The position numbers and the translations under genes are program-made. A DNA stretch of 64,000 nt from Bacteroidota bacterium. Its GTDB lineage: Bacteria; Bacteroidota; Bacteroidia; UKL13-3. The stretch is taken from NCBI GenBank assembly GCA_027482225.1, contig JAIXWD010000011.1, forward strand, positions 1-64,000. Reading direction: 5' to 3'. A model generated the notes under the pieces. It was not told the DNA's origin. It was given only the letters and a program-made list of their open reading frames with translations, and made no database searches. This document shows, in pieces, positions 1,712-61,584 of this stretch (its first letter is position 1; every line of letters starts with the position of its first letter).

Positions 1712-3079
1712 CTAACCAAATAAGTAGTTTAACATTTCTTCCAACTTGCTTAATTCAACAATAGTAATATTTGACTTTTGCTTGGGTAGTTTATTGAATT
1801 TACTAATATATACTGTTGTAAAGCCTAACTTTTCGGCTTCACTAATACGCTGTTCAATGCGACTAACAGCGCGTATTTCACCACTTAATCCCACCTCCCC
1901 AATAAATGTAATTTTATTATCAATAGGAACATTTTGGTAGCTGCTCACAATGGCCGCAATTACCCCTAAATCAATACCAGGGTCTTCAACACGCAATCCA
2001 CCAGTTATATTTATAAATACATCTTGCATACCCATACGTAGTCCACATTTTTTCTCTAGAATAGCCAAAAGCATGTTTAATCTTTTTGCATCATAACCAT
2101 TACTATTACGCTGAGGCGTTCCGTATGCAGCTGTACTAACAAGAGCTTGGGTTTCTATTAGTAAAGGACGTAATCCTTCAATGGTAGCGCTAATTGCAAT
2201 ACCACTTAAATTCTCATCACGTTGAGAAATTAATATTTCGGATGGATTGCTAACCTCACGTAATCCTTCACCATGCATTTCATAAATACCGATTTCACTC
2301 GTGCTGCCAAATCGATTTTTAGTGGTGAGTAAAATCCGATACACATGATTTCTATCCCCTTCAAACTGTAATACCGTATCAACCATGTGTTCTAATAATT
2401 TAGGTCCTGCTAACGCGCCATCTTTTGTAATATGCCCAATTAAAAAAACGGGGGTTCCTGTTTCTTTAGCAAACCGAATCAGGTCACCAGCAGTTTCCTT
2501 AATCTGAGAAATACTACCTGGAGTACTATCAATTAACTCGCTTTGTAATGTTTGAATAGAATCAATCACCACAATATCAGGCTGGAGTTCTTGTAATGCC
2601 TTACCTATTTTTTGCGTTGATGTTTCAGTAAAAAGATAGCAATCATTATTACGAAAAGGTAAACGTTCTGCACGCATTTTTATTTGAGTATCACTCTCTT
2701 CTCCACTTATGTACAACACTTTTTTATTTTGAAACTGTAAGGCTATTTGCAACATTAAAGTTGATTTACCAATACCGGGCTCTCCACCAATTAGAATTAC
2801 GCTTCCAGGCACAATACCACCGCCAAGCACTCTACTTAATTCCAAATCTTTTAATTCGTAGCGAAAGTCAATTCCATGTTCAACATCAGCCAATAAAACT
2901 GGCTTTAAAACACTTTTTGTGCTTTGTGCTTTCCATGTTTTTTTATATTCAGGTTTATCTTTATGAATAACCTCCTCAGTATAAGTATTCCATTCGCCAC
3001 AACTATTACATTTACCTACCCATTTTGGTGAAGATGCACCACAGTTTTTACAAAAAAATGTTGTTTGTGTTTTAGCCAT
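1712..3079 (-). CDS. radA: DNA repair protein RadA
   Basis: RadA is a RecA-like ATPase that helps process branched recombination intermediates. The 455-residue protein is full length. Visible parts in order: a C4 zinc finger (C10, C13, C24, C27), the Walker A motif GEPGIGKS (99-106), a Walker B-like VVIDSIQ (~170-175), the RadA-specific KNRFG motif (254-258), and a C-terminal Lon-protease-like domain (~280-455). A TATATTG promoter-like box at 3090-3096 ends 10 nt before the ATG, so the mRNA leader would be very short. It is transcribed alone, away from the partial surface-protein gene. Family assignment is firm. Confidence 0.97.
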   Translation of the reverse strand: MAKTQTTFFCKNCGASSPKWVGKCNSCGEWNTYTEEVIHKDKPEYKKTWKAQSTKSVLKPVLLADVEHGIDFRYELKDLELSRVLGGGIVPGSVILIGGEPGIGKSTLMLQIALQFQNKKVLYISGEESDTQIKMRAERLPFRNNDCYLFTETSTQKIGKALQELQPDIVVIDSIQTLQSELIDSTPGSISQIKETAGDLIRFAKETGTPVFLIGHITKDGALAGPKLLEHMVDTVLQFEGDRNHVYRILLTTKNRFGSTSEIGIYEMHGEGLREVSNPSEILISQRDENLSGIAISATIEGLRPLLIETQALVSTAAYGTPQRNSNGYDAKRLNMLLAILEKKCGLRMGMQDVFINITGGLRVEDPGIDLGVIAAIVSSYQNVPIDNKITFIGEVGLSGEIRAVSRIEQRISEAEKLGFTTVYISKFNKLPKQKSNITIVELSKLEEMLNYLFG

Positions 3080-3089
3080 AAGTTGATTG

Positions 3090-3096
3090 CAATATA
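3090..3096 (-). promoter_or_regulatory. Promoter-like box of radA
   Basis: On the minus strand the sequence reads TATATTG, close to the Bacteroidota -7 element TAnnTTTG. Ten bases separate it from the radA ATG, so the transcript would start about 5 nt before the gene. No clear -33 TTG was found. Confidence 0.4.
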
Positions 3097-3230
3097 CTAT
3101 TTATCGGAAATTTGAGCCATGAACGCAGAATAGTCAAAGATTTTAAAATTAAAGCGGAACAAAACTTTCTACTTAAGATTATTAAAATAAAATTAAGCCA
3201 AAATACACTTGATTTACTGGTGATTAAATA

Positions 3231-3368
3231 AAAAAAGCGGGAAACATTAAGAATCCCGCTTTAATTACAAACTATCCTTACCTCAAATACACTAATATTT
3301 AGATAAGATTTTTAGGTATATAAACTACAGTTGGTGAACGTAGCAAGTTTAATCCTTCTATTTTAACG
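3231..3368 (-). ncRNA. Candidate small RNA (about 135 nt) with its own promoter and terminator
   Basis: The gap between radA and the polyprenyl synthetase holds a complete minus-strand transcription unit without an obvious protein gene. A perfect TAnnTTTG box (TACTTTTG, complement of 3373-3380) predicts a start near 3366. A strong terminator with a 9-bp stem and a T7 tail ends it near 3231. The only frame inside is about 15 codons from a TTG (LLRSPTVVYIPKNLI), preceded by AGAAGGA. It could therefore be a regulatory RNA or a tiny peptide gene; I do not recognise its family. Existence as a transcript is inferred from the signals. Confidence 0.5.
3234..3262 (-). terminator. Rho-independent terminator of the candidate small RNA
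   Basis: Perfect 9-bp inverted repeat AAAGCGGGA / TCCCGCTTT with an 11-nt loop. On the minus strand it is followed by a run of seven T, the right polarity to end a leftward transcript. Confidence 0.85.
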
Positions 3369-3372
3369 AGTG

Positions 3373-3380
3373 CAAAAGTA
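3373..3380 (-). promoter_or_regulatory. TAnnTTTG promoter box of the candidate small RNA
   Basis: The minus strand reads TACTTTTG, an exact match to the Bacteroidota -7 consensus. No good -33 TTG is seen 19-20 bp upstream, so the match rests on the -7 box and on the terminator downstream. Confidence 0.55.
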
Positions 3381-3521
3381 AGACTTTTACGTTAATTTAA
3401 TCTTATTTTTTATCAAACGGTTGATAAACCTTTTAATCGGTGCGGTTGTTTTTATTCATATCAAAAACATTACTGATAGTAAACAAAATAGCTTATTATG
3501 ATGTATTGTATAGTATAGATA

Positions 3522-3552
3522 TTGAGTAGATTTAAATAATTACTTTAATTTG
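3522..3552 (+). promoter_or_regulatory. Promoter of the polyprenyl synthetase gene
   Basis: A TTG (3522-3524) and, 20 bp later, TTAATTTG (3545-3552) fit the Bacteroidota -33/-7 layout with one mismatch in the -7 box. Transcription would start around 3557, only a few bases before the TTG start codon at 3561. Confidence 0.5.
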
Positions 3553-3560
3553 CTGTTAGA

Positions 3561-4532
3561 TTGAGCCAAATAGACCTTATAAAGCGCCCCATAAACCAAG
3601 AACTTGATTTGTTTGAAACCAAGTTTCGTGAGGCTATGAAAAGTAACGTACCGTTATTGGATACCATTATGACTTACATTGTTAAGCGTAAAGGGAAACA
3701 AGTGAGACCTATGTTCGTGTTTTTTTCAGCTAAATTATTTAACGGTATTAATGATAGCACATATCGTGCAGCAAGTTTAGTTGAATTGCTACATACCGCA
3801 ACATTGGTTCATGATGATGTAGTAGATGATAGTGATGAACGTAGAGGGTTTTTTAGCATAAATGCCCTTTGGAAAAACAAGATAGCTGTTTTAGTTGGCG
3901 ATTATTTACTAAGTAAAGGGCTCTTACTTTCTGTTAAAAATAAAGATTATCATTTGCTTGAGATTGTAAGTGAATCTGTAGAGGCTATGAGTGAAGGAGA
4001 ATTATTGCAAATTGAAAAAACACGTAATCTGAATTTGAGCGAAGAGATTTACTACGATATCATTCGAAAAAAAACAGCCTCACTTATTGCTAGTTGTTGT
4101 GCTATTGGCGCTGCCAGCGCAGGTGCAAATGCTGAGCAAATTGAACAAATGCGTTTGTTTGGCGAAAAAATAGGTATCGCATTTCAAATGAAAGATGATT
4201 TGTTGGATTATGGCGATAGTGATATTGGAAAACCTACAGGAATTGATTTAAAAGAAAAAAAATTAACCTTACCTATTATTTATACAATTAATAACTCAGA
4301 CCGCAGCACACGTAATTTTATCATCAACACGATAAAAAACCACAACAACAATAAAACAAAAGTAGCTGAGGTAATTAAATACGTTAATGAGCATGATGGC
4401 ATTGCTTACACACGAAAAGCAATGGAAAGACATAAAAACGAAGCGCTTACATTGTTAAATAATGTAAGTGAATCGCCATACAAAGAAAACTTAAAAGAAT
4501 TGGTTGCTTATGTTATAGACCGAACTAAATAA
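3561..4532 (+). CDS. Polyprenyl synthetase (trans-isoprenyl diphosphate synthase)
   Basis: Elongates isopentenyl diphosphate chains, most likely making the octaprenyl/nonaprenyl side chain of menaquinone (inference from family). The 323 residues include both Asp-rich motifs that bind Mg-diphosphate: DDVVD (85-89) and DDLLD (212-216), plus GKQVRP (45-50) for substrate binding. The start is a TTG: an in-frame stop lies at 3546-3548, and the first ATG would remove 25 conserved residues. The promoter ends 8 nt upstream, so the mRNA is nearly leaderless. It converges with the PorE-like gene, with only 3 bp between the two stop codons. Confidence 0.93.
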   Translation: MSQIDLIKRPINQELDLFETKFREAMKSNVPLLDTIMTYIVKRKGKQVRPMFVFFSAKLFNGINDSTYRAASLVELLHTATLVHDDVVDDSDERRGFFSINALWKNKIAVLVGDYLLSKGLLLSVKNKDYHLLEIVSESVEAMSEGELLQIEKTRNLNLSEEIYYDIIRKKTASLIASCCAIGAASAGANAEQIEQMRLFGEKIGIAFQMKDDLLDYGDSDIGKPTGIDLKEKKLTLPIIYTINNSDRSTRNFIINTIKNHNNNKTKVAEVIKYVNEHDGIAYTRKAMERHKNEALTLLNNVSESPYKENLKELVAYVIDRTK

Positions 4533-14559: not shown

Positions 14560-14596
14560 AAAAAGTCGGCATGTGTTTTACCCATGCCGACTTTTT
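14560..14596. terminator. Bidirectional terminator between the subtilase and dusB
   Basis: A perfect 14-bp stem (AAAAAGTCGGCATG and its complement) with a 9-nt loop, flanked by A-run and T-run, serves the two convergent genes. Confidence 0.92.
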
Positions 14597-34143: not shown

Positions 34144-34179
34144 AAAAAAAATGCCTCACAATTGTGAGGCATTTTTTTT
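34144..34179. terminator. Bidirectional terminator between DUF2752 and rny
   Basis: A 36-nt perfect palindrome, A8-TGCCTCACAA with its complement ending in T8, between convergent genes. Confidence 0.93.
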
Positions 34180-61549: not shown

Positions 61550-61584
61550 AAAAACGCCCCGAACAATATGTTCGGGGCGTTTTT
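61550..61584. terminator. Bidirectional terminator between the LPP20-like gene and trxA
   Basis: 16-bp perfect stem (AAAAACGCCCCGAACA and complement) with ATA loop and T-run; serves convergent genes. Confidence 0.93.

Follow-up and report, generated by a model that had tools for sequence, protein, structure and literature searches.

A conserved candidate small RNA between radA and a polyprenyl synthetase gene in one lineage of Bacteroidota

Does the interval between radA and a polyprenyl synthetase gene in a Bacteroidota bacterium of the UKL13-3 lineage contain a small RNA (sRNA) gene of its own? The interval lies in a stretch of 64,000 nucleotides from contig JAIXWD010000011.1 (hereafter the window), and the original prediction held that a perfect -7 box and a perfect terminator on the minus strand delimit a transcription unit there, a good candidate for either a new sRNA or a micropeptide. 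Both elements were confirmed, and the unit that they enclose measures 139 nt (Table 1). It overlaps neither radA (1712-3079, minus strand) nor the synthetase gene (3561-4532, plus strand), so that the claimed separation from both neighbours also held. The octamer pattern TAnnTTTG is abundant in the window (97 occurrences on both strands) and the box alone therefore says little. It was, however, perfect in each of the six genomes that carry the unit (hereafter carriers), which points to a promoter belonging to the unit itself; the start position is a predicted one. In Flavobacterium psychrophilum the TAnnTTTG box is placed at -12 to -5 in the available part of the report (PMC9723704), and the same spacing gives a start at 3368 and a length of 139 nt to 3230. 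In the -33 region a TTTG was present in a single carrier (G008). The terminator consisted of a stem of nine perfect pairs (3234-3262) with an 11-base loop, followed by T7 in a T-run that reached 3230. Sites of this type, defined by a stem of 8 or more perfect pairs, 5 of them G-C, a loop of 3-14 and a T-run, numbered nine on both strands of the window versus none in 10 order-1 Markov simulations. The terminator was absent from a terminator scan because that scan permits only loops of 3-8. Elsewhere in the window, three strong hairpins with T-runs were terminator-like in both directions (14563-14593, 34148-34175 and 61552-61582). As read from these elements, transcription would begin at a housekeeping-type Bacteroidota promoter at about 3368 and would stop at the intrinsic terminator at 3230.

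Table 1. Positions of the sRNA unit and of associated elements in the window.
Feature	Position	Strand	Supporting observation
sRNA gene, predicted +1 at 3368 to T-run end at 3230, 139 nt	3230..3368	-	Box, terminator, homologues in 6/9 genomes of the genus
-7 promoter box TACTTTTG (TAnnTTTG)	3373..3380	-	Perfect TAnnTTTG in 6/6 carriers
Intrinsic terminator, 9-bp stem AAAGCGGGA/TCCCGCTTT and T-run	3230..3262	-	9/9 pairs invariant in 6/6
Near-invariant core: hairpin 2 (3277-3307) and linker (3263-3276)	3263..3313	-	Each of 5 homologues matches the window at 48-50/51 positions
5' hairpin (hairpin 1) with paired changes among species	3324..3344	-	2/6 pairs double-changed, pairing kept, in 2/6 sequences
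Direct repeat ACCGATTAA-11 bp-ACCGTTTGA, putative LytTR-type site	3413..3441	-	Strict in 5/6, not in G006
radA -7-like box TATATTGC, 17 nt before the ATG	3089..3096	-	Same octamer upstream of radA in 9/21 loci

The distribution of the unit was followed with sequence and covariance searches. A DNA query against 97 genomes matched eight, namely the genome from which the window derives (G000), five others of its genus, and G022 and G047. The 39-base matches in the latter two covered no more than the query's promoter part, were sited at a divergent gene pair and were rejected. The six carriers, the only genomes from which the sRNA is known, are thus six of the nine genomes of the genus, and the other 55 genomes of the family gave no accepted match. 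Conservation in related species had been set beforehand as a test that could refute the sRNA idea, and the idea withstood it. The whole-RNA covariance model R1 recovered the same six carriers among 64 family genomes, together with four weak matches in G024, G012, G041 and G048 (30.6-34.1 bits). These were rejected on inspection, since they match mainly the terminator; two of the loci (L030 and L033) match on both strands and the other two (L031 and L032) overrun a gene end. L030 also has a hairpin at the place expected for hairpin 2. A core-only model (R2), which was built with two accidental non-standard bracket pairs (columns 41-42 with 53-54) and recovered all six training members, found the same six of the 64 family genomes and none of G024, G012, G041 and G048 at E <= 0.01. 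When R2 was run against 395 genomes of the class, only G000 and one match in G077 were obtained; the latter (E 0.007 per genome, over 395 genomes) lay within an open frame of 735 aa, on the opposite strand, and was judged to be due to chance. Searches of more than 40 genomes used stricter filters, and a search of nine chosen genomes, with no positive genome among them, gave no match at E <= 1. The exact core pattern was present in five contigs of the species collection, which have the same lengths as the contigs of the five other carriers, and in none of the viral contigs. A metagenome-assembled genome labelled Chitinophaga pinensis (L037, CALPIR020000060.1) carries the sRNA; its contig is as long as that of G005, a member of the window's genus, so the species label may be wrong.

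Within the genus, the sRNA was missing from G003 (99% complete) and G007 (98% complete). In G001 (65% complete) radA adjoins the synthetase gene, yet no sRNA match was found. The carriers formed one clade in a midpoint-rooted radA tree of 20 sequences (support 0.89; five carriers, the G005 sequence being too short) and also in a midpoint-rooted synthetase tree of 13 sequences that included all six carriers, where the support of 0.49 was weak.

The degree of conservation differed strongly along the unit. Between G000 and its most distant carrier, G008, 48 of the 51 core positions and 30 of the 33 terminator positions agreed, compared with 30 of 55 in the 5' part, while four-fold sites were identical at 49 of 142 in radA and at 39 of 93 in the synthetase gene. 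The comparison of G000 with G002 gave 49 of 51 for the core and 58 of 158 for the four-fold sites of radA. As the core has stayed near-identical while the four-fold sites of the neighbours have largely changed, selection appears to act on the sequence itself. In all six carriers the unit lies between radA and the synthetase gene, and the distance between the -7 box and the terminator's end is near-fixed (146-152). In contrast, the distances to the neighbours vary: the synthetase start is 119-123 bp from the upstream repeats in five carriers and 360 bp in G008, and the end of the terminator is 26 to 217 nt from radA. This combination argues for an independent gene. The original proposal of a new sRNA is hence supported by strong conservation and by a promoter box and terminator kept in six species, and we consider that the locus probably gives rise to a non-coding RNA of its own, an intergenic sRNA 139 nt in length.

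Besides the terminator, the RNAalifold consensus contained a core hairpin of 12 bp and a 5' hairpin with AGG/CCU as its closing pairs; of the 33 pairs in the consensus, 4 were changed on both sides in some sequence. The RNA would accordingly present a sequence-variable 5' hairpin, a near-invariant core hairpin, an invariant linker and the terminator. For a fixed structure of 30 pairs, 98.3% of the 180 cells could pair, versus 40.6-53.6% when the structure was slid by 1-3 positions; the two double-changed pairs in this structure were both located in hairpin 1. The covariation score was reached by 11 of 500 shuffles, the number of double-changed pairs by 233 of 500 and the number of further pair types by 455 of 500. 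No variation was present in 11 of the 12 pairs of hairpin 2 and in any of the nine pairs of the terminator, and this near-invariance leaves these two elements with no covariation and hence no proof of pairing. The whole RNA folded better than dinucleotide shuffles (z -2.6); with the terminator removed, its advantage over mononucleotide shuffles was not clear in the six sequences (z from -0.26 to -1.52). The 14-nt linker GAUAGUUUGUAAUU between hairpin 2 and the terminator was invariant in all six carriers and open in the consensus fold. In single-sequence folds it was fully open in G000 and G006, nearly open in G004 and partly paired in G002, G005 and G008.

A conserved core followed by a terminator is also the anatomy of a riboswitch, and the unit could be a cis-regulatory leader or attenuator of radA, in which the core senses something and the terminator decides on radA transcription. 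In all six carriers radA lies downstream in the same direction, and the end of the terminator is just 27 nt from the radA ATG in G002 and 26 nt in G008. When the 3' arm of the terminator was forced open, a 5' AAGGAUU stretch (kept in five of six) paired with the 5' side of the terminator in four of the six folds. However, the fold with the terminator was better than the best fold with an open 3' arm by 10.1-14.0 kcal/mol in all six sequences, the gap between the sRNA and radA is variable, and no Rfam family matched. Further, radA has its own box, TATATTGC, which is also found in three relatives without the sRNA. It lies 17 nt from the ATG in the six carriers and 13-17 nt in G001, G007 and G018, which lack the sRNA, and it fits the SM5 promoter motif TAnnTTGY given for F. 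psychrophilum in the accessible part of the report (PMC9723704). The exact octamer was missing from 12 of 21 radA loci; in four of these a different box of the TAnnTTTG or TAnnTTGY type lay within 45 nt, and the remaining eight had none. A radA leader is for these reasons regarded as improbable.

A second alternative is that the conservation marks a DNA element, such as an array of protein-binding sites, beside an unrelated terminator and with no functional RNA. The upstream direct repeat and the inverted repeat that overlaps it indicate that conservation is partly at the DNA level, and covariation is modest. Yet the most conserved stretch lies between the -7 box and the terminator and runs into the latter, the length from box to terminator is near-fixed and hairpin 1 changes on both sides, which makes this explanation very unlikely. 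The proposed 15-codon micropeptide is scarcely credible: an open 15-codon frame does follow an AGAAGGA stretch in the window, its last codons (PKNLI and stop) are in frame in G000, G004, G005 and G006 (four of six), and ATG frames of 20 codons with the same ending in G004 and of 6 codons in G005 and G006 exist, but the TTG start is confined to G000 (TAG, GAG, CAG, TAG and TAT in the five homologues, with TAG in G006 and G002), deletions of 1 nt (G002) and 2 nt (G008) shift the frame, the invariant core lies mostly downstream of the stop, and no whole reading frame is conserved across the carriers.

The sRNA was also compared with known RNA families. The comparison with Rfam suggested in the original prediction was run and no family fits: with Rfam 15 there was no match in the window at the gathering threshold, and a relaxed search of 3080-3560 gave nine matches, all far below gathering scores. 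Titles and beginnings of abstracts in the literature searched did not mention the RNA. The best reading of the sequence data is that the sRNA is restricted to its lineage, new as a family and ordinary in kind.

Upstream of the promoter box, the direct repeat listed in Table 1 was the only strict match in the window (0.2 per strand are given by simulations) and had one perfect match in the genome. Its end is 32-34 bp from the -7 box in five of six carriers, and its second repeat starts 41-43 bp before the box in all six, the G006 copy being degenerate. A perfect inverted repeat, TTTATCAA-CCGT-TTGATAAA (window 3409-3428), overlaps the second direct repeat and is the sole perfect copy in the genome. 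G006 keeps an inverted-repeat version, TTACCAA..TTGGTAA, though its direct repeat is degenerate. As a wide regulon, the direct repeat gave 14 and 16 matches versus 22 and 22 in the control. The inverted repeat TTTATCAA-N4-TTGATAAA was tried as the operator of a regulon and rejected, with 12 and 12 matches at up to 2 mismatches versus 11 and 11 in the backward control.

The arrangement of the direct repeat resembles the binding sites of LytTR-type regulators. In the portion of the LytTR survey that was available, repeats such as ACCGCTTAT have spacers of 11-13 bp, mostly 12, and are usually located 10 bp before the -35 box; its table rows, when summed, place the repeats mostly 31-34 bp before the -10 box, with one row at 27 (PMC6193735). 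AlgR, a regulator of the LytTR type, binds CCGTTCGTC and CCGTTTGTC, as described in the accessible part of another report (PMC4064291). The sRNA promoter shares with LytTR-activated promoters a pair of ACCNNTTNN-type repeats of 9 bp, with 11 bp between them, that lies 32-34 bp before the core box (PMC6193735), and the general pattern of such promoters (ACCNNTTNN direct repeat, spacer of 11-13 bp, about 31-34 bp before the core box) was found in five of six carriers, not in G006. It differs in that the published spacers are mostly 12 bp and the strict repeat is absent in G006, and the one visible Bacteroides row starts with a different sequence, TCCGGTATTCA-11bp (PMC6193735).

The genome encodes four LytTR domains, in genes at C17:139703, C18:9618, C18:7810 and C3:406340 of G000; three of the proteins resemble response regulators by eye and the fourth domain stands alone. 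Three stretches around the LytTR genes contained no strict repeat and two loose ones, both at L088. At L087 (G000 C18:6000-11000), a methyltransferase-like gene lies between two genes for LytTR regulators, and of the four closed ORFs there that reach 100 aa or more, none resembles a histidine kinase by eye. Several observations speak against control by LytTR: the repeats of G006 are degenerate, no regulon is seen, no strict repeat lies near the LytTR genes, and G004 is a close relative of G000 (radA DNA 97.3% identical). A LytTR-type activator may nevertheless set when the sRNA is made. We consider it possible, if less than probable, that a LytTR-type response regulator directly switches on the sRNA in this small Bacteroidota clade, as an independently arisen signal-to-sRNA circuit. 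The logic of such a circuit would be like that of AgrA and RNAIII of Staphylococcus.

As to its function, the sRNA would most likely act in trans, with the linker or the core pairing to the start regions of mRNAs, perhaps helped by an RRM-domain protein, a proposal in which we place middling confidence. The genome encodes one RRM_1 protein, at C7:426908 of G000. RbpB, a protein of the RRM_1 type, binds sRNAs in Bacteroides thetaiotaomicron, according to the available part of its description (PMC11697453). The likeliest pairing site is the linker, by analogy with GibS and FopS. In the accessible parts of the reports, GibS of B. thetaiotaomicron is a 145-nt sRNA, intergenic and conserved; the FopS sRNAs of the same species have housekeeping-type promoters, a conserved stretch that is unpaired and a Rho-independent terminator; and both act or pair near the start codons of their target mRNAs (PMC7366714, PMC11697453). 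The likeness is one of description, and FopS comprises 14 paralogues (PMC11697453, PMC7366714), whereas the sRNA described here has one copy in G000. It can likewise be compared by description with Rfp18 of F. psychrophilum, also a Bacteroidota sRNA conserved across a genus, which differs in having predicted protease mRNA targets in the available part of the report (PMC9723704). Searches for targets gave no signal above background: in the six genomes, antisense matches to the linker with at most 1 mismatch numbered 15, six of which were the gene itself, versus 16 in the backward control. The nine other sites included two identical pairs, both rejected as targets; the pair in G000 and G004 lay in orthologous DNA of close relatives, and the pair in G008 and G005 showed no DNA similarity around the site. 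Among the start regions of 46 open frames in the window, the best linker duplex scored -13.3, a value that shuffled linkers also reach (their minima averaged -12.6).

Bacteroidota sRNAs with known roles seem to come mostly from Bacteroides and Flavobacterium, and an sRNA family from another lineage would therefore widen the picture of sRNAs in this phylum. The putative LytTR link is the most interesting hypothetical part of the story of this sRNA. Should the direct repeat prove to be a LytTR site, a signalling system would have the sRNA as its output, and this would offer a direct way to both the signal and the targets.
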